This document shows, piece by piece, positions 9,640 to 64,000 of a stretch of 64,000 nucleotides of DNA (the first letter of the stretch is position 1; each line of letters starts with the position of its first letter). The notes below the pieces were generated by a model. The model saw nothing but the letters and a program-made list of their open reading frames with translations, did not search any database and had not been told where the DNA came from. Origin of the DNA: Basidiobolus meristosporus CBS 931.73. Lineage: Eukaryota > Basidiobolomycota > Basidiobolomycetes > Basidiobolales > Basidiobolaceae. The stretch spans positions 31,519 to 95,518 of the forward strand of contig MCFE01000321.1 of assembly GCA_002104905.1 (NCBI GenBank), given 5' to 3'. The position numbers and the translations under genes were made by a program.

Positions 9640-10432
9640 TGCTAAATGCACATACTGACCAGTCCTAATTTTGACCTAAGATATTCAAGCTCATCTCTAG
9701 CTAATGTTTCATAAATATGTCTGCAATCATATCATCTGAGGGACAGTAAATTAAGCTAACTTGTTACGCTCTATAGCTTCACGTATGAAATGATGTCAAA
9801 TATTTATGTGCTTGGTTCTAGCATGAAAGGTTGGATCTCTACCTAACTTTGTACATCCTTGATTATCCTGAAATAAGTAATAGGTGTTTTTTGACTTAGG
9901 CCTAAATCTGTACAAAGCTTTCAGAACCACATTGCTTCTTCTGTAGCTTCACAAGCTGCAATATACTCTGCCTCTGTGGTAGAGAGTGCTACGGTTAGTT
10001 GCTTTTGTGAATTCTATGAAACTGCTCCTTTGCAGTAAGGAAAGGTGCATCCAATGGTGGATCATCTGTATTCCAACTGATATCCCAATAAACATCATAG
10101 TATGCTGCAAGATCCTGTTTTAACTCCTTATAGTTATATCTTAAGCAGATATCCACAGTTCCTTTTAGGTATCTAAAAGTCTGCTTAACTGCTCCAATAT
10201 GATCAGATCCATAGTTCTGATAATGCTGGCTGACAACTCCCACTGAATATTAGATATCTGGACATGTTCTAAGCATGAAATAAATCAGACTGCTGACTAT
10301 AGTTTGATAAGGAAAGTCAGGGCTTTTGGATGGTGTCAAGCTCTCTTGATTTGGTTGAGTGTTGACCAAGTTAAGGCAGACTGGTGCTTCAGAAAGTGAG
10401 ATAGTCAGCAGAAAAAGCCTAAGAAATGCCAA
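9640..10432 (-). pseudogene. Copia RT end plus RNase H fragment
   Basis: On minus, the segment begins with the RT C-terminal part (NTQPNQESLTPSKSPDFPYQ) and runs into RNase H (KQTFRYLKGTVDICLRYNY and the A-C-E-A region near 9960). Its start, at NQESL, coincides with the residue where the plus-strand copy 10440-12776 stops. This suggests one element broken by an inversion. Confidence 0.7.
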
Positions 10433-10439
10433 TTAAGAA

Positions 10440-12776
10440 GGTTTTCATGGGTGACAATAGAACAATTGATGCAGTGGGCAAATGAACTATCCAAGTAAGC
10501 CTTAGATGCAAAGAAGGAAGCCATACACTGACCTTTAAAGAAGTACGCTATGTACCAGAAATAGCCAAGAACCTATCATCTGTAAGCAAGGCCACTGTAA
10601 AAGAACTCAGCTTCAGCTTTGACAATTCTGGATGCAGGATCACTGATCAAAATGGTGCCCATGTTGCTTTGGGTATCAGATATCAGAATCTATACAAGTT
10701 GACTTATATTCCATCATATCTGGAAGCTGATATCAGTAACTTAAATGAAGTAACACCAGTGGTCTGACACAGAAGATTTGGACACATCAATTTAGATTAT
10801 TTGTGCAAAATAATCATATATCATCCAATTTCCAGAGCAAAAATTGATCCCCTAGCTGATTTAGAGCACTGTGAAGCCTGCATATATGGGAAATAAGCTA
10901 GACAACCATTCAAGAGCTTTGGGTTAATCAAAACTAAGAAAAAATTAGATCCAGTCATTTCAGATCTGTGTGGACCTATGCAAAGTTTATCATTAGGTGG
11001 GATGTAGTATTTAATCACTTTTATCGATGATTTTACATGGGTCTACTTCATGAAGTGAAAGGAAGAAGCTCTGTCTAAGTTCAGGGAGTTCAAAGTCATG
11101 GTGGAGAGAGAAACTAGTGAAAATATCATGAAAATACACTCTGACAATGGTGGAGAATATACCTCAAAACTCCTCATCCACTTCTGCAAAATTCATGGGA
11201 TAAAGCAAGAGACCACTGTGACATACTCCCCACAGCAAAATAGAGCAACAAAACATGCAAATAGATCAATAATTGATATGGCAAGATCTATGTTCTATAA
11301 TCAAAAATTATCCTATGATATTTGGGCAGAATCAGTTGCCACTGCTGTATACCTTAACAATAGGAGTTATAACAGAATACTTTGTAATTCTACTCTATTT
11401 GAGGCATGGCATGGAGACAGGCCAAGTATAGAGCTTCTAAGAGAACTTGTGTGTACATCATGTGCCAAGAAACTGCCCAGAAATCAGTCAAAGTTTGAGC
11501 CAAAGAGTCTAAATTGCATATATTTGGGCTACAGCAATGAAAGTAAAGCATACAGACTCTACAATGCCAAAGCAAAGAAGCTTATCAAGCTCAGGGATGT
11601 GTTGCCTGGTGAAAATGGAAAACTTTCACAAATAATGACATCTGATGATGACAAAAATCTGATCTCAAGTCCACCAATTGTCAGGACAGAATCAGAGCTA
11701 AACAATGAGAATTTTTCACTCCAGTGGACTCTACAACCATGGTACAGCCAGAATCAGTGCCCAGGAATATCCCAGAAGAGATTGTTTCAGTATCAAATGC
11801 CAGGAGATTCAACTGGACAAGAAATAGTCCTTATTACTAAATCATTGTGGGAACAAGTTTAGCCTATGCCTATTCAGTCATTATTGATGAGCACCACACT
11901 TTCAAAGAGGCCCTAAATAGCCCTCAGACAAGGTTTTGGAGATCTGCAATGACTGAGGAATATCAGGCCCTGATGGAAAATCAAACTTGGGACTTGGTCA
12001 AATTACCTATCAATCAAAAATCAATTGGATGCAGATGGGTCTCTAAGACAAAATATAAGGCTAATGGCACAATTGAAAGATACAAAGCAAGATTTGTGGC
12101 CAAAGAATACTCTCAAATAAAGGGACTTGAGTATATTGAGACCTTTGCACCAGTAGCCAAATTTATTTCCATCAGATTAATATTGGCTATTGCAGCCAAA
12201 TATGAGTTTTTTATACATCAAATGGATATAAAAACTGCACTTTGAATAGAGAGCTTGACAAGGATGAGTATACATACCAGCTTGATGTGTTGATTACCCA
12301 GGATAACCCCCATTTGGTCTGCAAGCTTAAAAATACCTATATGGTCTCAAACAATCACCAAAAGCCTGGAATTGCAAGATAGATTCATACTTGGAGTCTT
12401 TGAGTTTCAAAAGGAGTTGTGCTGACTATAATATGTACTATAAGCCAGATAGAGTAATTCTAGTTCTATTAGTTCTTTATGTGAATAATCTTATTATAGC
12501 CACCAATAATCTCAAACATTGGAACAGACTAAATCCAGTCTATCTAATTAGCTCAAGATTTCAAATCTAGGAGAACTCAGTTACTACTTTGGGATAAAGT
12601 TCTCCCTAGACAGAAGTACCCAGACTATCACCCTAAGCCAATCCAAGTATATTCAAGGTAAACTAAAGAAGTACCAAATGGGAGTCTGTAAACCAGCAGC
12701 TACCCCAATGGAGACAAACCTTAACTTGGACAAAACTCAACCAAATCAAGAGAGCTTGCATGCTAGAGCTACGCAT
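10440..12776 (+). pseudogene. Degenerate Ty1/copia protease-integrase-RT
   Basis: The best preserved copia segment. It contains a protease-flanking region (about 10460-10740, GDNRTIDAVGK then VRYVPEIAKNLSSVSK), the GAG-pre-integrase zone, an integrase with an open stretch at 11098-11862 (IHSDNGGEYTS, then TVTYSPQQN and RSIIDMARSM), and RT with an open stretch 11847-12245 (WVSKTKYKANGTIERYKARF, ETFAPVAKF, QMDIKTA) running degraded to about 12740. The two open stretches are in different frames and there are stops on both sides. No gag is recognisable. Confidence 0.8.
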
Positions 12777-55225: not shown

Positions 55226-56686
55226 TTAGTTGTGTGCCTCAGTGGCAGGGAAATCGGCGTCTGGCGACTTGGTGCCGGTGATTTCCTCGATACTGCGACC
55301 CTTGGTTTCAGGCAAGAGGAAAAGAACTCCGATAAATCCGACGATACACGCAACCACGAAGATCAAAAATACGTAGCCCTCCATGGCGTTCTTCAATGAT
55401 GGAAAGAAGAAACCAACAACAAAGTTACCAAACCAATTGAGCCCAAGCGCCGAGGAGGCCACGGTCGAGACTGCTCTCGTAGGAATAAGTTCGGAGATGA
55501 TCAAAAATGGAATAGGTCCCATTCCGAGAGCGAAGGCGACAACAAAGGCAAACAGTCCAAGGATGACGAGCCCGGAGTCGTTACATTGGATACCAATGAT
55601 CATGAGTACGTTGAAAGAGGCCATACCAGCCAGACTCAAAAGTACTAGGAACTTTCTTCCGACGCGGTCGATAAGAAGGATGGTAACCACCGTGGCAAGT
55701 AGATTGATCGCTCCCACGCCAACGGTTAGGTACTGTGCAGTCTTGTTACCGTAAATGGAGGTGAAGATTGATGTGGAATAGTACATGATACCGTTGATAC
55801 CACAAAGTTGCTGGATTACACAAAGGAACATGCACATGAAAGCATGCTTACGGGTCAACGGGTCACTCATGATGAATCGGAACCCGTCCATCACAGAGGT
55901 ATTGTCTCCGGTGGATTTAGCATGAGCACGAGCATCGATCATGGTTTGGAGCTCACCACTAATGTCCATACCCTTGCGCAGTTTCAGGAGTGACTTCTCC
56001 GCATCCTCCACACGATCCTTCGATATGTAGTAACGAGGGGTTTCCGTGATAAACGACAAGGTAACCAGCTGGAAAACGGCGATGGCGCCAGTAAGTGCTA
56101 AGCAGACACGCCATCCAGCACGGGTAGATAGCCCAAGACCAGCCGCCTGAGTGACTAACTGACCAATGACACACGTAAGCTGAGTCATGGCACCGTAGGC
56201 ACCACGCACCCTGGTGGTTGAAACCTCACCGATGTAGGTTGGGAGAACTACAGTTCCGAAGCCAGAGCCAATACCGGTGAATGCACGGCCAACGATCCAC
56301 ATACCCTTGTTTTTAGAAAGACCGATGAGCAAAGCACCAACAATGAAGAAAACATTGTTGAAAAGGAGAGAGTTACGGCGTCCAAACTTTGCCTGGGCCC
56401 AACCGGCAGAAAGGCCGCCAATGGCACCACCAATGGAGAAACTACTCACGGCGAAGCCCCACATCCAGTCGCCCATAGGGAAACAGTATGGGAACCCATT
56501 CACCTTCTCATCGGGGTGGTCACAGTTCACAATGGATGCTTGAATAATATTGGTATCGGAGGTATTCCAGCCATTGTTGAAGGATACAATACAAGCAATG
56601 GAAACACACAGCAGTGTGTAGAGCGAGAAGCCAGCCTCAGACGAATCCATCGGACCCTTCTGTTCTTTTGAAGAACGGTTGAGCAT
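55226..56686 (-). CDS. MFS sugar (hexose-type) transporter
   Basis: A facilitative or proton-coupled sugar carrier of the plasma membrane. One exon, 486 residues, twelve membrane helices. Sugar-porter signatures are AKFGRRNSLLFNN after helix 2; GRAFTGIGSGFGTVVLPTYIGEVS in helix 4-5; RGAYGAMTQL; TETPRYYISK before the central loop; QQLCGINGIMYYSTSIF in helix 7; DRVGRKFLVLLSLAG after helix 8; and PETKGRSIEEI after helix 12. The helix-7 QQxxGIN block and PETKGR put it in the GLUT/hexose group. The substrate cannot be settled from sequence. This is the last intact host gene before the chromosome end. Confidence 0.93.
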   Translation of the reverse strand: MLNRSSKEQKGPMDSSEAGFSLYTLLCVSIACIVSFNNGWNTSDTNIIQASIVNCDHPDEKVNGFPYCFPMGDWMWGFAVSSFSIGGAIGGLSAGWAQAKFGRRNSLLFNNVFFIVGALLIGLSKNKGMWIVGRAFTGIGSGFGTVVLPTYIGEVSTTRVRGAYGAMTQLTCVIGQLVTQAAGLGLSTRAGWRVCLALTGAIAVFQLVTLSFITETPRYYISKDRVEDAEKSLLKLRKGMDISGELQTMIDARAHAKSTGDNTSVMDGFRFIMSDPLTRKHAFMCMFLCVIQQLCGINGIMYYSTSIFTSIYGNKTAQYLTVGVGAINLLATVVTILLIDRVGRKFLVLLSLAGMASFNVLMIIGIQCNDSGLVILGLFAFVVAFALGMGPIPFLIISELIPTRAVSTVASSALGLNWFGNFVVGFFFPSLKNAMEGYVFLIFVVACIVGFIGVLFLLPETKGRSIEEITGTKSPDADFPATEAHN

Positions 56687-58776
56687 GTTGTGTGATAGGA
56701 TCGATGGATGTAGATAAAGCTCAATAAAGTGGATGTGTAATGGGAATTAGACCACAAACGACATTGGAAAACGGTATTTATATCGTGCCAGGGAATTTGG
56801 ACCATTCCAACGGTGTCCGTTTTCGCTGGCTATTTCCATAAGTAGATTTCACTGGATAAGTAAGAAATCAATACTTGTGTCTGGACTATACCCATGATTG
56901 TCAAGTTTAGTCCATTACTTCTCCCGCCAAACTCAACTAATTCTCCGCGCCCTTGGCAAGAACAGGTCGTATATAAATATGTATATATCAAGTGTATGGT
57001 ATGTCTATTACACTTGGAGGTAAAGAACAACCTGTGTTGAGTGTTACCATCGCAGCAAGTTGGCAAGTTGGAAAGAACTGACCTCAACAATGCTCGTGGA
57101 GGCCGCAATTTCGTTAGGGCCGTACAATACCGAATTTCCTTTCCAATTGAACATATCCGTTCGATGCACCGTAATATAAATATACCTAATCAAGCCTGAG
57201 GTCTTTCTGGTTAACTTTAAAAAATGCCGCCAGTAAAGTGCACGGAAAACATCAACTCCCAATTGCTAAGATCCAGCTGATTATTGGTTCCCCGAACGTC
57301 ATAATCCTAATTCAGAGGATTCTGTGTTGTTTATGGAGACACGGGGTAGGTAAATGCATGGGCATCTATGTGTGATAGGACAGTTCTAGAAGCGTGCTCG
57401 TGGGCATTGCTTAATTGAGCTTCTTGCCTAGTTGAATCCTCAGCCAAGCCCTAGAAATGCTTGGACTTACCCGGGCACCACACTTGAATGATAATTGTGG
57501 AGGGGTGGTTAAGCGTGGCATTATACAGAGTTCGGGTCAGGTTTGGTAGCGTTTATTATTCTTTATTGTTAGGCATCACGAGCTATCAAACCATATACAC
57601 ATGAGCCTTTGGTATGGTACAGCTTGTGGTTCAATGCACATAAGTCATTGCGGTGAGTTTGTGCTTACTGACTCCCAGCAAGTCGGTTATACACATTGCG
57701 CTTCCGGTTGGACAGTTATTGCGAATTATCGGAGCCATCAGTTTAAGGTAATCCCAATGATATCATCTTGAAAATCGGGAAATTGATCCAATTGAAGAGA
57801 ATTTCCTTCGATCAGCAACCTATATACGGAAACACGATCGGTGTATTAGCTTTGGATTTATTCAGTGCTGTAATAATAATTCCTATTTGTTGTACAATCT
57901 GCATCACATACTCTTGACTTCGAAGTTGAGAGCTATTGGAATACTGTCGATAGTGCTTGTGGGTTTTTAACGATGTCATACGGTGTGGTTGATGTGAATA
58001 TCACCGGGAACTGCCTCTTTTTCGCTAGCTAGTGTGTTACTCCGCCCTGACACACATTCTAGTAATGTAGAAAATGAATCCTGTTCTCGGCAGCGTTACT
58101 TTTATATACTTCATACGACTCTAACATTCTGCTGGTATGTCATGCAGGCGCAACTTCGATAAAGCATCTGAAGTATCAGGATGTTGAGGACTATTGGATG
58201 CTCCTGGTCTGATGCTGGAGCATGAATGGAAATTTGCCTGGTTTAGAAGGTGTGGGTAATCTTTGTACACTGTAGATTTACACAAGGCTACAGTAGTAAT
58301 CCAAACTGGATATGAAATCATGGTGCTACCCTCGAAGGATACCGATAGATCAGTTGATAAGCGATGAGACTCTGGTACTGAAGTCTTTGGACGATCCTTT
58401 GCTAAGTATAATTCTATTCTCTACTAGAAAGAAGGAGTGAATAGCTTGCTTTTGAATACAAAGAAAGATCTACCCGCTGCTCGTCTACCGGCTGATATTC
58501 TCTTTATCTTGATGGCTGTTAACAAAGTCTGCTTGAATGCTGGAGCAAGAGGACATGTAGATCGTATAGGATACAATCTACGCTTAGCCCTCCTATTAAT
58601 GTTACATTAGGTGAATCGACCCAGAAAGGATGTGATAAGCAAATTGTGTTTCAACCGTATTTTACGTAACATACATGAACTTATGTATATCGCTCATACC
58701 AGCTAAATGCCCTAATTAGTATATATATATCTATTCTGGTGAATTATGGTTCTTGTGCTGGTTAAACATCATGTAA
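56687..58776. other. Gene-free subtelomeric transition
   Basis: About 2.1 kb with no frame above 92 codons that looks real. Base composition is like the single-copy region, not like the repeats on its right. No seam motif and no repeat seen. Confidence 0.5.
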
Positions 58777-58787
58777 GGGTTAGGGGG

Positions 58788-59313
58788 TGTGTGACAATTC
58801 CTAACAGGTGAAACCTTTGTTTCAATAACCCAAAATGAAGAAGTCAAGGATTACATGGGGAGCTTTTTTACAAGTGAATGAAGAGAAGGGTCATTTTGGG
58901 AATGCCTATAAGAAAGAGTACTAAGTTCAAGAGGAGTAAAAACAGATCCTAAGAAAAAATCCAAGAAAAGGCCAGCAGAACACCATCATTATATCAGCTG
59001 AATTCCAAGTTTCTCAAACTGGCAACTCTCAGTAACTCATTTACTGGCTGTTGGGTGGATAAGCAGACATATTTTCCAGGAGAAGACTAGGCCAACTAGC
59101 ATTCATAACAAAATTCTTAATAAGCTGCTTGTTCCTTCCACTAAAACTTGCAACTGAAAATTTGAAGGAAAGCCACCAGCTGAATGCCTGCAAAATACAA
59201 CTAGAATTCCAGCTGAACACTAGGTGATAATCAGATGAGTACCAAGTTTGAGATTTTATGTAGGGAGAGTCTAGTGGTACTGGAGGGATAACTAAAGCAT
59301 GCAGTGGCTCATA
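58788..59313 (-). mobile_element. Telomere-seam element, family A
   Basis: A segment of about 526 bases between TTAGGG-type seams at 58777-58787 and 59314-59324. Its sense strand is minus, and its 3' end abuts the left seam. At that end TGAAAC-CTTT-GTTTCA (58809-58824) forms a 6-bp hairpin equivalent to the TGAAAT-CTTT-ATTTCA of family B, with a compensatory pair change. No coding frame recognised. Origin unclear. Confidence 0.55.
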
Positions 59314-59324
59314 GGGTTAGGGGG

Positions 59325-59876
59325 AAGACAGTCACCAACAAGTGAAATCTTTATTTCAATTGAGACAAAAAAGCCAATGCTACTGTTGTAGCTTTTGTAC
59401 AAAAGTGTGTAGCTTCAGGAATTTGTAGGTAAGCTAATAGGGAGAGATGATAGTTCTTCAGTGCTCAAAACACTGTTCAGTGGAAAGGGGGGTAGCAAGA
59501 GGGGTAGGAATGCTTTGTGAGCAACATTGACAAGGGGAATATGATAAAGATTGATATTCATCATAAAGGGAGTGTGCGGCTTCAGATATTGCTGTCAAAG
59601 GTCTGCCAAGTACTTCAGGTAGGCCAGCTTGGGTTTTTCTGACTGCAGAATATAATGAGCAAACTTCTTGACTTTGGGATCTCAGAGTATAGTTCTCCAG
59701 CAGGAGCCAGGCATAGTGTGGTGTATTCTCTTCCAGGCCTTGATTAGTGGGTTGTTGCAGTGGAGAAGTCTGAGATATAACCTGGTTCTAAGGTAGAGAA
59801 GTCCAATCTTATAGGGCATAAACCCAAAAGCACCAAGAATTGCATGTCTGTAGGGGCTTTCAGGCAGATTTAGGGC
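59325..59876 (-). mobile_element. 5'-truncated LINE-like fragment, family B copy 1
   Basis: On minus it encodes part of a polyprotein C-terminus: YRHAILGAFGFMPYKIGLL, YLRTRLYLRLLHCNNPLIKAWKR and GSCWRTI, then frame breaks. The arrangement (small hydrophobic-basic helices after an RT, then a stop) fits the C-terminal region of a LINE ORF2. The 3' end is fused to a GGGTTAGGGGG seam. The 5' end runs into TTTAGGGCTAGGGTTAGGGG at 59869-59888. Confidence 0.65.
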
Positions 59877-59911
59877 TAGGGTTAGGGGAGGGAAAGTAGG
59901 GGGAGGAAAGT

Positions 59912-60420
59912 CACCAAGTGGTGAAATCTTTATTTCCTTATAACAAGTATCTAAAGAAGCCAAGTTAATCTGAAGTTATTCCTAGAACACTAGGTCTGAG
60001 AGATATCTTCCTGGTAAGCCAGGTCTGAGAGTTGAGAAACTGAGTGGTACTATATTTCCTAGTTAGCTAGGTCCAAGAGAGATTTCCTGGAAAGCCAGGC
60101 CTGAGAAGTAAGAATCTGAGTATATCTGAGCTAAGTTATACTGGTTTGCAATAGCTGAATTGTGGCTGGAATGGTCAGTAGACTGGGGGAACTCAGAGGA
60201 ATTTCTGAGTGATTACTGGCCATATTTACTAGGCAAATCTGGCCAATTAGCATTTCAAGGACTTCAGCCAATCAGAGCCTTTACTTTGCTTGATGGTTGA
60301 TCAAGCCATCTCCCAATAAGCACACTTCAATTAATTAATCAAGCTTTGCTAGATCTAGGATTTCAACCCACAACCATGGGTATGGAAGGGTTAGGAATAA
60401 CCACAAGTCTAAGTGTTCTT
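59912..60420 (-). mobile_element. tRNA-headed SINE-like element, family C copy 1
   Basis: A full-length copy between seams at about 59875-59911 and 60421-60438. Its sense 5' end (on minus) has a tRNA-like head: an A-box-like TAGACTTGTGGTTAT (60411-60397) and a degraded B-box (GTTGAAATCC, near 60358-60367). The body holds four short hairpins (CCTAG/CTAGG, CCTGG/CCAGG, CCTAG/CTAGG, CCTGG/CCAGG). The tail ends CACC-ACTT-GGTG on minus, at the seam. Confidence 0.65.
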
Positions 60421-60438
60421 GGTTAGGGGGTTAGGGGG

Positions 60439-60597
60439 AGCAAAGTAACCAAGTGGAGAAATCTTTATTTAATTATGACAAGTATCTAAAGAAGCCAAGT
60501 TAATCTGAAGTAATTCCTAGAAAGCTAGGTCTGAGAGATATCTTCCTGGTAAGCCAGGTCTGAGAGTTGAGAAGCTGAGTGGTACTATATTTCCTAG
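60439..60597 (-). mobile_element. 5'-truncated SINE-like element, family C copy 2
   Basis: The 3' part of family C only. It breaks off inside the third hairpin at TTCCTAGTTA, where the element's own TTAG overlaps the first letters of the next TTAGGG seam (microhomology at the 5' junction). The 3' hairpin is decayed (AACCAAGTGGAG). Confidence 0.65.
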
Positions 60598-60607
60598 TTA
60601 GGGGGGG

Positions 60608-60916
60608 AGACAGTCACCAACAGGTGAAATCTTTATTTCAGTTGAAACAAAGAAGCCAGCACTACTGTTGTAGCTTTGATATAAGAGTGTGTAGCTGAGG
60701 GGAATTTGTAGGTAAGTTAATAAGAAGTAATGATAGTTCTTCAGTGCTCAAGACACTGTTCAGTGGGAAGGGGGGTAGCAAGAGAGGTAAGAATGACTTG
60801 TGAACAACATTAATGAGGGGAATGTGATAAGGATTGATATTCATCATAAAGGGAGTGTGCTGCTGCAGATATTGCTGCCAAAGGTCTGTCAAGTACTTCA
60901 GGCAGGCCAGCTTGGG
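60608..60916 (-). mobile_element. 5'-truncated LINE-like fragment, family B copy 2
   Basis: The 3' part of family B. On minus it encodes LTDLWQQYLQQHTPFMMNIN, HIPLINVVHKSFLPLLLPPF and the terminal SPQLHTLISKLQQ-stop, then a 3'-UTR ending in the two hairpins. It is truncated at GGGTTTTAGGGG, again overlapping the seam sequence. Confidence 0.7.
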
Positions 60917-60928
60917 TTTTAGGGGGGG

Positions 60929-61447
60929 AGGAAAGTCACCAAGTGGTGAAATCTTTATTTACTTATGACAAGTATCTAAAGAAGCCATGTTAATCTGAAG
61001 TAATTCCTAGAAAGCTAGGTCTGAGAGATATCTTCCTGGTAAGCCAGGTCTGAGAGTTGAGAAGCTGAGTGGTACTGTATTTCCTAGTTAGCTAGGTCTG
61101 AGAGAGGTTTCCTGGAAAGCCAGGCCTGAGAAGTGAGAATCTGAGTATATCTGAGGTTAGTTGTACTGATTTGCGGTAGCTGAATTGTGGCCGGAATGGC
61201 CAGTAGACTGGGGGAACTGAGAGGAATATCTGGGCGATCACTGGCCAAATTTACGAGGCAAATCTGACCAATTAGCATTTCAAGGATTTCAGCCAATCAG
61301 AGCCTTTACTTTGCCCGATGGTTGATCAAGCCATCTCCCAATGAGCACACATCAATTTATTAATCAAATTTTGTTGGATCTAGGATTTGAACACACAACC
61401 ATGGGTATGGAAGGGTTAGGGATAACCACAAGGCTAAGTGTTCTTGG
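60929..61447 (-). mobile_element. tRNA-headed SINE-like element, family C copy 3
   Basis: The cleanest copy. Minus-strand head: A-box-like TAGCCTTGTGGTTAT (61436-61422) and B-box GTTCAAATCC (61392-61383), about 30 bases apart as in tRNA genes. Body hairpins on plus coordinates: 61006-61019, 61035-61048, 61083-61096 and 61111-61124, each with a 5-bp stem and 4-nt loop followed by (T/C)CTGAGA. The tail hairpin CACC-AAGT-GGTG sits next to AAAT-CTTT-ATTT, then the seam TTTTAGGGGGGG. Confidence 0.75.
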
Positions 61448-61578
61448 TTTAGGGGGAGGGAAAGTCACCAAGGTAGGTGAAATCTTTATTTGATTGCAGA
61501 CAAGTCTAACTACAAATAAAGAAGCCAGCTGGGAATAGAAGATTCCCAAAGTAAACACGAAGTTGAATATGAATAAAT

Positions 61579-62307
61579 CTAAGCTAAAGTTAAGGCAGTA
61601 TCCCAGAGTACACTGGAGTTCAGGTTCATGGGGGAGTGAAGTAGATAAGCCTGAGAGATATAATAATCCTTTAAGAAGTGGGTAACAGCAGGTGAAGGGG
61701 AGTTTTTGATAAGTGAAGTGAATCTTGAGATTAGAGATTCCTCTAATGAGAAGGTCTTGTAAACTGGAGAATCAGGAAACTCTTTAAAGGCATGGTCAGT
61801 AGGTTCCCAGTAAAACTGGTCAGAGACATTTTGAGAGAACTCTTTAGCAATACTTTTGTCAAGTACTACCTCCAGAGTGTGATGGTTGATAAATCTCATG
61901 TTAACAATCTTGGATAAGTTGTAACCTTGTTGCTTGAGATACATCCTATGCTCAGATATAGGAATAAACTCCACATTGGCAAAGTAGCAGACAGCCCAGT
62001 CAGTAGCAGGAGGCAAATCAGAAGTAGCAGGAAACTTTCTTTTAGTCTTGGGAGGGGCAGCAGGATGTCTTGAGGAAGTAGGAACAGGCTTTTTGACAGC
62101 TTCAGAGTAGGAAGAGTGAGCAGGAGCAGATGATTCTTGGGGAATCTTGTTGACAGGAAGAGTTGGCACAGGGACAATAGATTCTTGCAGATCAGAAAAG
62201 GCAGAAAACAGCTTTTGAACTTGCTTCTTGAGTAAAGCATTTTCAGCTTCAACAAGTGCAAGCCTTTCCTCAAGGAAGGAAATCTGAAGGGAATGGAGTG
62301 AAGGCAT
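61579..62307 (-). CDS. LINE ORF1-like protein of family D element
   Basis: A 242-residue frame from the ATG at 62307 (MPSLHSLQISFLEERLALVE) to TTALA-type end (WDTALTLA). A leading coiled coil of about 45 residues (EERLALVEAENALLKKQVQKL) is followed by a Pro/Ser/Lys-rich linker (KKPVPTSSRHPAAPPKTKRK) and a globular part with DWAVCYFANVEFIPISEH, then IVNMRFINHHTLEVVLDKS. Coiled coil, basic linker and a compact RNA-binding-like domain is the usual LINE ORF1 plan. No CCHC knuckle is present. The frame extends upstream without an ATG into the 83-bp monomers. Confidence 0.65.
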   Translation of the reverse strand: MPSLHSLQISFLEERLALVEAENALLKKQVQKLFSAFSDLQESIVPVPTLPVNKIPQESSAPAHSSYSEAVKKPVPTSSRHPAAPPKTKRKFPATSDLPPATDWAVCYFANVEFIPISEHRMYLKQQGYNLSKIVNMRFINHHTLEVVLDKSIAKEFSQNVSDQFYWEPTDHAFKEFPDSPVYKTFSLEESLISRFTSLIKNSPSPAVTHFLKDYYISQAYLLHSPMNLNSSVLWDTALTLA

Positions 62308-62347
62308 AAGAAACAAGAAGAAGAGGGTAGGATGGGGTGGGTGGGTG

Positions 62348-63201
62348 GGAAAATTAGCAGGGAGAAGAGAAGGAAGGAGCAAAAATTCCGAAAGTCAGAA
62401 TTTATAGATGGATGGATTATTCCTGGGTTAGGAAAATTAGCAGGGAGAAGAGAAGGAAGGAGCAAAAATTCCGAAAGTCAGAATTTATAGATGGATGGAT
62501 TATTCCTGGGTTAGGAAAATTAGCAGGGAGAAGAGAAGGAAGGAGCAAAAATTCCGAAAGTCAGAATTTATAGATGGATGGATTATTCCTGGGTTAGGAA
62601 AATTAGCAGGGAGAAGAGAAGGAAGGAGCAAAAATTCCGAAAGTCAGAATTTATAGATGGATGGATTATTCCTGGGTTAGGAAAATTAGCAGGGAGAAGA
62701 GAAGGAAGGAGCAAAAATTCCGAAAGTCAGAATTTATAGATGGATGGATTATTCCTGGGTTAGGAAAATTAGCAGGGAGAAGAGAAGGAAGGAGCAAAAA
62801 TTCCGAAAGTCAGAATTTATAGATGGATGGATTATTCCTGGGTTAGGAAAATTAGCAGGGAGAAGAGAAAGAAGGAGCAAAAATTCCGAAAGTCAGAATT
62901 TATAGATGGATGGATTATTCCTGGGTTAGGAAAATTAGCAGGGAGAAGAGAAGGAAGGAGCAAAAATTCCGAAAGTCAGAATTTATAGATGGATGGATTA
63001 TTCCTGGGTTAGGAAAATTAGCAGGGAGAAGAGAAGGAAGGAGCAAAAATTCCGAAAGTCAGAATTTATAGATGGATGGATTATTCCTGGGTTAGGAAAA
63101 TTAGCAGGGAGAAGAGAAAGAAGGAGCAAAAATTCCGAAAGTCAGAATTTATAGATGGATGGATTATTCCTGGGTTAGGAAAATTAGCAGGGAGAAGAGA
63201 A
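62348..63201. repeat. 83-bp tandem repeat, ten full copies plus a partial
   Basis: Units start at 62348, 62431, 62514, 62597, 62680, 62763, 62846, 62929, 63012 and 63095, with a partial unit from 63178. Copies are almost identical: the only difference I see is a single-base change (GAGAAGGAAGG to GAGAAAGAAGG) in the units starting at 62846 and 63095. Each internal unit boundary contains GGGTTAGG, a telomere-like word. The array lies directly upstream of the family D ORF1 on minus. Confidence 0.9.
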
Positions 63202-63214
63202 GGGTTAGGGGGGG

Positions 63215-63836
63215 AGACAGTCACCAACAGGTGAAATCTTTATTTCAGTTGAAACAAAGAAGCCAGCGCTACTGTTGTAGCTTTGATACAAGAGTGTGTA
63301 GCTGAGGGGAATTTGTAGGTAAGTTAATAAGAAGTGATGATAGTTCTTCAGTGCTCAAGACACTGTTCAGTGGGAAGGGGGGTAGCAAGAGAGGTAAGAA
63401 TGACTTTTGAACAACATTAATGAGGGGAATGTGATAAGGATTGATATTCATCATAAAGGGAGTGTGCTGCTGCAGATATTGCTGCCAAAGGTCTGTCAAG
63501 TACTTCAGGTTGGCCAGCTTGGGTTTTTCTGACTGCAGAATATAGTGAGCAAACTTCTTGACTTCAGGATCTCCAAGTATAGTTCTCCAGCAGGAGCCAG
63601 GTGTTGTGTGGTGTGTTCTCTTCCAGGCCTTAATCAGTGGGTTGTTGCAGTTGTGAAGTCTGAGGTATAATCTGGTTCTAAGGTAGAGAAGTCTGATCTT
63701 ATAGGGCATAAACCCAAAAGCACCAAGAATAGCATGTCTGTAGGGGCATTCAGGCAAATGAGGCACCAAGGAGGTAATGCACCATACTGCAAACTTGTCA
63801 AGCTTAGTGCAGTCTCTAGAAGTAAGAGAGAGAAGT
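63215..63836 (-). mobile_element. LINE-like fragment, family B copy 3, capped by telomere
   Basis: The longest B copy. On minus, an open frame 63769-63269 encodes PYRHAILGAFGFMPYKIRLL, CWRTILGDPEVKKFAHYIL and LKYLTDLWQQYLQQHTPFM through to LVSKLQQ-stop. The 3' end at 63215 abuts the seam GGGTTAGGGGGGG (63202-63214), with hairpins CACC-AACA-GGTG (63222-63233) and TGAAAT-CTTT-ATTTCA (63232-63247). The 5' side is truncated directly into telomere repeats. Confidence 0.75.
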
Positions 63837-64000
63837 GGTTAGGGTTAGGGTTAGGGTTAGGGTTAGGGTTAGGTTAGGGTTAGGGTTAGGTTAGGGTTAG
63901 GGTTAGGGTTAGGGTTAGGGTTAGGTTAGGGTTAGGGTTAGGGTTAGGGTTAGGGTTAGGGTTAGGGTTAGGGTTAGGGTTAGGGTTAGGGTTAGGGTTA
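63837..64000 (+). repeat. Telomere, (TTAGGG)n with TTAGG variants
   Basis: Uninterrupted G-strand telomere repeat reading 5' to 3' to the window edge. The inner part contains three TTAGG (five-base) variants; the outer part is uniform TTAGGG. This marks the right chromosome end. Confidence 0.97.

Follow-up and report, generated by a model that had tools for sequence, protein, structure and literature searches.

The array at the end of contig C560

The right end of contig C560 (95,518 bases) of Basidiobolus meristosporus CBS 931.73 carries an array of retroelements that are joined by short telomere-like seams. The window analysed here is the whole stretch of 64,000 nucleotides (G000:C560:31519-95518), which runs up to the right end of the contig. 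At window positions 58777-63836, eight segments of four families lie head to tail in one direction under a telomeric cap; an earlier note on this DNA had described them so, and all-against-all blastn together with sequence inspection confirmed the description. The sense 3' end of all eight segments points to low coordinates, that is, to the centromere side. S2, S5 and S8 belong to a long interspersed nuclear element (LINE) termed LINE-A, S3, S4 and S6 to a family resembling a short interspersed nuclear element (SINE), and S7 to a family with only the first open reading frame (ORF) of the LINEs, ORF1; S1 is unassigned. The array is probably the product of a LINE system whose members, including a second LINE termed LINE-B, share one 3' tail. 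Its parts in the window are as follows, with the evidence in brackets.

58777..58787, plus strand: seam of S1, GGGTTAGGGGG, centromere side of the array (sequence)
58787..59316, minus strand: S1, unassigned element with a diverged form of the shared 3' tail (blastn, tail alignment)
59317..59324, plus strand: seam of S2, TTAGGGGG (sequence)
59328..59871, minus strand: S2, 5'-truncated LINE-A, C-terminal part of ORF2 and 3' tail, about 90% identical to S8 (blastn)
59882..59897, plus strand: TTAGGGG and 9 nt of a tail of LINE-B/ORF1-only type (sequence, tail alignment)
59898..59904, plus strand: seam of S3, (T)AGGGGG, without TTA triplet (sequence)
59900..60422, minus strand: S3, SINE-like, recurrent 5' end (blastn, genome pattern count)
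60423..60438, plus strand: double seam of S4, TTAGGGGGTTAGGGGG (sequence)
60439..60596, minus strand: S4, 5'-truncated SINE-like element (blastn)
60598..60607, plus strand: seam of S5, its TTAG coinciding with S4 body sequence (sequence)
60609..60917, minus strand: S5, 5'-truncated LINE-A (blastn)
60919..60928, plus strand: seam of S6, TTAGGGGGGG (sequence)
60930..61448, minus strand: S6, SINE-like, 519 bp (blastn)
61436-61426, minus strand: A-box-like motif of S6, TAGCCTTGTGG (motif test)
61393-61383, minus strand: B-box-like motif of S6, TGTTCAAATCC (motif test)
61449..61456, plus strand: seam of S7 (sequence)
61457..63202, minus strand: S7, ORF1-only element without reverse transcriptase (RT), 3' tail of LINE-B type (blastn, tail alignment)
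61579..62307, minus strand: ORF1-like protein of S7, 242 aa (ORF and alignment)
62348..63203, minus strand: 83-bp tandem repeat, 10.3 copies, the 5' region of S7 (repeat finding)
63203..63214, plus strand: seam of S8, GGTTAGGGGGGG (sequence)
63214..63837, minus strand: S8, 5'-truncated LINE-A, C-terminus of ORF2 and 3' tail (blastn)
63837..64000, plus strand: terminal TTAGGG repeats, which cap S8 and end contig C560 (repeat finding)

In seven of the eight segments the seam directly reads TTAGGGGG. That of S3 reads GTAGGGGG and follows the TTAGGGG and short LINE-B-type tail at 59882-59897, where the new seam begins after 9 nt of another tail, which reads like aborted synthesis. At S5 a separate telomere repeat is not needed, since the TTAG of the seam is body sequence of S4. 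A search of a plasmid collection gave no match.

The shared 3' tail and its seams

The tail consists of AAATAAAGATTT, a 5-bp hairpin (TCACC/GGTGA) and then a C run. In the alignment, CTTCTTT, AAATAAAGATTTCACC, a loop, GGTGA and the C run are common to LINE-A, LINE-B, two ORF1-only families and the SINE-like element; the tail of S1 is a diverged version. The hairpin is predicted in all three tails that were folded, and 0, 38 and 5 of 200 shuffles, respectively, fold equally well. We searched the genome (89.0 Mb, 1,311 contigs) with the tail pattern GTCACCAA-N(1-6)-GTGAAATCTTTATTT and, as a control, with the same pattern backwards. There were 1,521 exact matches (1,398 forward, 123 reverse) and none for the control, so the shared tail is not due to chance.

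The earlier note had expected the elements at chromosome ends throughout the genome, and the tails bear this out. Eleven contigs of at least 50 kb hold 37 of the 100 matches listed, and none of these matches is farther than 22.2 kb from the end that its orientation predicts, the last 25 kb being 12.8% of those contigs; the other 63 are on contigs of about 20 kb or less, which are uninformative on end position. Copies of the LINE-A RT show the same location. On contigs of known length, 26 of 27 copies, five of them on contigs of less than 20 kb, were no more than 10.1 kb away from the expected end; for contigs of 50 kb or more the figure was 21 of 22 within 8.4 kb, the exception being on contig C726. 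Of the 100 matches listed for the 5' end of the SINE-like element, 15 are on contigs known to be 50 kb or longer, and none of these is more than 17.9 kb from the expected end. The strand is also biased, with 55 of the 58 LINE-A RT copies scored and 53 of 55 matched stretches of LINE-B on the minus strand. TTAGGGx6 gave 6,568 forward and 68 reverse overlapping matches; the telomere would thus lie mostly at the right end of contigs, an oddity of assembly orientation that would explain the strand bias of the tails. Such lopsided counts, and the error-prone nature of repeats at contig ends, could be taken to mean that the seams are false repeat joins of the assembly. One seam grammar is repeated across the 93 junctions sampled, whose upstream sequences differ, and we consider such an artefact very improbable.

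These junctions come from 99 collected seams, of which 93 are unique by their 60 bp of upstream sequence; the duplicate loci L001, L003-L005 and L009-L038, except L009 and L027, were excluded. The G run of the seam is 3-12 long with a mode of 6. The suffix in telomere phase is 12 bases or shorter in 91 of the 93 seams (21 and 22 in the other two), and in 11 it is 4 or shorter, the G run then having no preceding TA (e.g. L042, L045, L055). Inspection by eye found no poly(A) next to any of the 93, in line with the earlier note, and the C run beside the seam and the telomeric caps, which that note had also anticipated, are both present. Four telomeric caps carry 27-36 repeats. In 55 of the 93 seams the element is joined directly to another member of the system on its upstream side; a few of these assignments come from a match to a library piece that had been cut from the very same place.

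Fractions over all tails were taken from the reverse strand because the forward counts with variable gap overlap (1,128 and 3,766 are not element numbers), whereas the reverse counts hold one match per tail, judging from the rows listed. At least four Gs occur within 10 nt in 114 of the 123 reverse-strand tails (93%), and TTAGGGG within 14 nt in 87. A G run accompanies 35 of 37 tails among the matches listed in the G-run count. TTAGGGG is absent from 29% of the reverse-strand tails and from at least 19% of the forward ones. Thus the extra Gs that the earlier note had seen at the seams hold, whereas TTAGGGG is not constant, and the RNA need not have the whole end that it proposed, CCCCCUAA. Since the G run is nearly constant and the TTA optional, the C run is probably the constant part encoded by the template; possible sources of the TTA are a telomere remnant, microhomology and, on some of the RNAs, a UAA. 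The exposed G-strand end that the same note had suggested as primer agrees with the orientation and the seam. The primer was usually not a long telomere, however, since 91 of the 93 seams have at most 12 telomere-phase bases. The sampled seams start on many non-telomeric sequences, sometimes without TTA, and a fixed position inside telomere repeats was not encountered in them.

Some features of the seams are also expected if several RNAs were copied in succession by template jumping in one event, for which the chromosome end would be needed at the first seam only. These are the seams without a telomeric hexamer, the 5' ends of SINE-like elements that pass straight into the following TTAGGGG and the double starts within seams at 59882-59897 and 60423-60438. 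Other seams, however, hold one to three telomere hexamers (L095, L002), as if telomerase acted in between, and divergence within the array is uneven in blastn (identity of 90% for S2/S8 and 98% for S5/S8), so the segments were probably not all made at once. We think it unlikely that template jumping made the array, to which it may have contributed.

Many contigs carry near-identical copies of S8, the 40 best matches being 99-100% identical. This would fit a history in which insertion was rare and most copies reached other ends when whole subtelomeres recombined or were copied by break-induced replication, and a passage of PMC7367193 describes growth and shrinkage of MoTeR arrays by recombination-type events. 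The 20 sampled truncation points of LINE-A were all different, though, which makes those junctions independent events, and we judge such a history to be quite unlikely.

Autonomous LINEs and their dependants

LINE-A and LINE-B consist of ORF1, the sequence UGA-CUA and then an in-frame ORF2 with an endonuclease like the apurinic/apyrimidinic endonuclease (APE) and an RT. The earlier note had asked for a full-length copy of one family and for the class of its RT and endonuclease; complete copies do contain both domains. LINE-A is about 4.4 kb or more in size; locus L041 spans 4.4 kb up to the ORF1 leader. Its ORF1 encodes 502 aa, in which CxxC and CxC motifs can be read by eye close to the N-terminus; matches to coiled coils stayed below threshold. 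Its ORF2 frame is open for 922 codons after the UGA. LINE-B (L108-L110) has the same layout with an ORF2 of 949 aa, the ORF1 frame of L109 being partly shifted. RVT_1 matched two LINE-A copies (5e-25 and 1e-25) and LINE-B (1.5e-20), and the best solved chains for LINE-A ORF2 alone are those of L1 ORF2. By sequence, the RT of both elements is of the non-long terminal repeat (non-LTR) type.

The region upstream of ORF1 in LINE-A contains two internal TTAGGG repeats and a GCGCGCTGTGACTGC block, followed in L039 by 101-bp tandem repeats (L039:9599-9858, L041:6911-6941), which lie 5' of the leader. ORF2 of the L039 copy is interrupted. Two of the 5' ends of LINE-A are at most 1 base apart. Four breakpoints of S7 type inside the 83-bp repeat likewise fall within 8 nt of one register, together suggesting a start site in each repeat unit.

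The junction between the two frames is a candidate for programmed stop-codon readthrough, as judged from its sequence; reinitiation is possible as an alternative. The 12 nt TCTGCC-UGA-CUA and the shared frame are identical in LINE-A (L041:5327-5336 for the in-frame UGA-CUA) and LINE-B (L108-L110). The two ORF2 products are 48% identical (439/918), and the third positions at shared residues of four- and six-fold codon families match in 107 of 271 cases. According to the abstract of PMC4132726, readthrough in human cells was 1.5% with UGA-CUA alone.

Sequence motifs point to an APE-like endonuclease at the N-terminus of ORF2. In the alignment, Y-PP, GD(L/I)N, VDW and SDH are kept in LINE-A and LINE-B. 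The position of the catalytic Glu is Asp in LINE-A, LINE-B, P0002 and P0004, that is, in every endonuclease of the Basidiobolus type that covers the site, and a PTR-like motif found in most of the other aligned LINEs is absent from the Basidiobolus-type sequences. The Pfam endonuclease score is above the cut-off only in the relative P0006; it is below in LINE-A, and LINE-B gave none. The endonuclease region of LINE-A alone had no sequence match in the PDB at E up to 10, and a profile of five Basidiobolus-type and 13 other LINE sequences matched L1-EN and TRAS1-EN. An AlphaFold model of the domain, built from the same alignment as the profile, had a pLDDT of 85. An endonuclease-free LINE had been considered from the 781-aa, ATG-started ORF2 with RVT_1 only; it was rejected on account of the frame, which is open back to the ORF1 stop, and of the APE-like motifs.

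An endonuclease that keeps Y-PP, GDxN and SDH would suit target-primed insertion as in SART and TRAS. The enzyme would nick TTAGGG repeats, and long tracts between elements would later be lost by breakage to leave short seams. In Magnaporthe, interstitial tracts of at least three repeats were concluded to promote breaks (a passage of PMC7367193), and the junctions of FoTeR are read as target-primed reverse transcription in part of PMC12857005. On the other hand, the usual catalytic Glu is Asp in the four sequences named above, and loss of tracts alone does not predict the 11 of 93 seams with telomere-phase suffixes of 4 bases or fewer. We regard this route as an improbable origin of the array.

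The dependants have no RT of their own in S7, whose ORF1-like protein is 35% identical to LINE-A ORF1 over 163 aligned positions and which probably reaches its repeat-defined 5' end. A second ORF1-only family is present in L039. S3 and S6 share one 5' terminus (...TTCTTGG on the plus strand). Because this terminus recurs, they look like complete elements of 519-523 bp and not like truncated pieces. The 23-base 5' end has 210 exact matches in the genome. A related pattern, in which the 5' end runs into TTAGGGG or TTAGGGT, has 171, neither pattern being a strict subset of the other; among the matches listed for it, 32 continue with TTAGGGT and the rest with TTAGGGG. S6 has A-box-like and B-box-like motifs 32 nt apart. 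Of 20,000 dinucleotide shuffles, 12 equal this when the motifs may lie anywhere and 1 when they are confined to the first 25 nt, with motif forms that were picked post hoc.

Proposed addition to chromosome ends

We propose, with a probability of about 0.7, that the array is the product of a telomere-specialised LINE system of the stringent type, in which two autonomous LINEs and their dependants share one tail. The SINE-like element and the LINEs have in common a 3' tail with a predicted stem-loop, as stringent LINE/SINE pairs do (alignment, folds). The mix of families that the earlier note had not recognised is a set of two related LINEs and their dependants and not of unrelated elements. ORF2, reached from ORF1 by readthrough of UGA-CUA, would bind the tail hairpin of its own RNA or of a hitchhiker. 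At a chromosome end that has lost its telomere or kept very little of it, the C run would pair with the G-rich 3' strand, and this 3' end would prime first-strand synthesis, which would place the sense 3' end towards the centromere and leave a G run as seam. Synthesis would often stop early and give 5' truncation, and telomerase or the next element would cap the new end. Hairpin recognition, pairing, priming at bare ends, readthrough and mobilisation of the SINE-like element by the LINEs are steps that we infer; priming seems to occur at ends with few or no telomere repeats. The genome encodes telomerase: C880 carries the RNA-binding domain of TERT (PF12009) in two pieces, one of them with a stop inside the matched stretch. 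The elements therefore act together with telomerase and do not replace it.

Several points weigh against this reading. Because the endonuclease domain has most of its motifs, nicking inside telomere repeats could still take place. The seams are not a random sample: 19 regions were chosen without TTAGGGG, 25 with it and 16 at RT copies, and the rest came from longer loci. End distance covers 27 of the 58 RT copies and a minority of the other matches. In one of the three tails folded, 38 of 200 shuffles do as well as the hairpin, which covariation does not support because the stem hardly varies. A stem-loop 3' of the UGA, considered as part of a readthrough signal, occurs in LINE-A (36 of 200 shuffles fold equally well) and not in LINE-B, and it was dropped. 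As for the SINE-like head, S3 fails the box test that S6 passes, ARAGORN found no tRNA in the element (window end and 14 loci), and Rfam gave nothing on 5.3 kb and one chance-level snoRNA match on five short loci. With these negatives a tRNA origin of the head was rejected, and the A- and B-box-like motifs are all that remains of the evidence for it.

Two internal arrays also count on that side. The earlier note had named the absence of copies from chromosome interiors as a point of support; the location at ends holds for the tails on long contigs, but these arrays depart from it. The one on C558 (L043), a contig of 218 kb, occupies 95-99.5 kb next to the pol region of a Ty3/gypsy element; the other, on C726, borders a truncated Ty1/copia pol and includes a full SINE-like copy; neither has an outer telomeric cap, and both pol types were assigned by eye. 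Rearrangement of former ends, insertion or misassembly may explain them, and other contigs may hold further internal exceptions. On C726 (L044/L106) there are two arrays whose centromere sides face each other about 240 bp apart.

Inside the window, a degenerate Ty1/copia-like pol at 10421-12758 is about 89% identical to the copia-like element that adjoins the internal LINE-A array of C726. It lies in an AT-rich part that carries retroelement remains; GC content in 2-kb blocks is 36-39% up to about 14 kb and 41-55% beyond. The long host frame nearest to the chromosome end, at 55226-56746 and about 2 kb inside the array, is a major facilitator superfamily gene of sugar-transporter-like type (family name by eye).

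Among known systems, the closest in tail logic are the Terminons and Athena elements of bdelloid rotifers, which are endonuclease-deficient and Penelope-like. A part of PMC6431247 describes for them a 3'-terminal RNA fold with a stretch complementary to the telomeric G strand, and 5'-truncated head-to-tail arrays with short telomeric stretches. The Basidiobolus arrays are likewise 5'-truncated and head to tail. In contrast to Terminons, the RT resembles that of LINEs and is accompanied by an APE-like endonuclease, the RNA is predicted to form only a small hairpin, and the tail is also present on a SINE-like element. As to a Penelope-type RT, a comparison with solved structures gave L1 ORF2 as the closest chains to LINE-A ORF2. 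For the hammerhead ribozyme, a Terminon trait, Rfam gave no match at E up to 1 in window 58700-64000.

MoTeR1 and MoTeR2 of Magnaporthe and FoTeR of Fusarium are also fungal non-LTR elements that lie head to tail at chromosome ends. They are similar in that the 5' end of MoTeR points outward, FoTeR has upstream tandem repeats and MoTeR2 is a partner without RT. Their 3' seams often hold several telomere repeats, whereas the Basidiobolus seams hold few or none. Passages of PMC12857005 and PMC7367193 assign them a restriction-enzyme-like (REL) endonuclease, C-terminal in FoTeR, and group them with CRE-type elements. The Basidiobolus LINEs, in contrast, have two ORFs, a tail with a C run and an APE-like endonuclease at the N-terminus of ORF2; a scan of LINE-A ORF2 found no REL zinc (CCHC) motif after the RT. 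The Basidiobolus system would work like Terminons and MoTeR/FoTeR and belongs to neither.

Drosophila HeT-A, TART and TAHRE form chains of non-LTR elements at chromosome ends with the sense 3' end inward, HeT-A being without RT. Basidiobolus differs in that it keeps telomerase (TERT domain) and TTAGGG caps and has no poly(A) at the sampled seams. SART and TRAS of the silkworm are APE-endonuclease LINEs that insert within telomere repeats; TRAS1-EN was matched by our mixed profile, but the Basidiobolus seams, unlike theirs, have few or no repeats. In the stringent pairs of the L2/CR1 group (UnaL2, ZfL2) the SINE likewise carries the 3' tail of the LINE, and such pairs are not known to be confined to chromosome ends. 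The Basidiobolus tail differs in that its stem-loop is followed by a C run complementary to the telomere. For ZfL2, recognition of the tail stem-loop by the LINE protein is described in a passage of PMC4176376.

The SINE-like hitchhiker bound to telomeres, with its shared address tail, looks like the new part of this system. Literature searches, mostly of non-subscription papers, found no telomere-bound SINE and no description of these Basidiobolus elements; the one near hit, the phrase 'subtelomeric SINE' in a frog genome paper, refers, in the passage concerned, to SINEs dispersed genome-wide (PMC10794172). A broader picture, whose chances we would put at even, is that of a complete ecology of retroelements bound to telomeres. 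A hairpin and C run would serve two APE-type LINEs, ORF1-only satellites and a SINE of Pol III type as one address label for bare ends, and all of them would add to short or lost telomeres alongside telomerase. ORF2 would be made by UGA-CUA readthrough, the endonuclease would have drifted from Glu to Asp since its nick is not needed where the chromosome end provides a primer, and the SINE would be the first one confined to chromosome ends.

The hairpin and C-run tail offers a tractable handle on end-primed reverse transcription, and readthrough expression in a non-LTR element can be tested at the UGA-CUA junction that both of the diverged LINEs have kept. The roughly 1,500 tails and the near-identical copies on many contigs would be a natural record of retroelements extending eroded ends in a fungus that has kept a telomerase gene. 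If our reading is true, an early-diverging fungus came upon the Terminon trick, an RNA 3' fold with a telomere-complementary tail, independently in its APE-type LINEs, and a SINE can parasitise such end addition.

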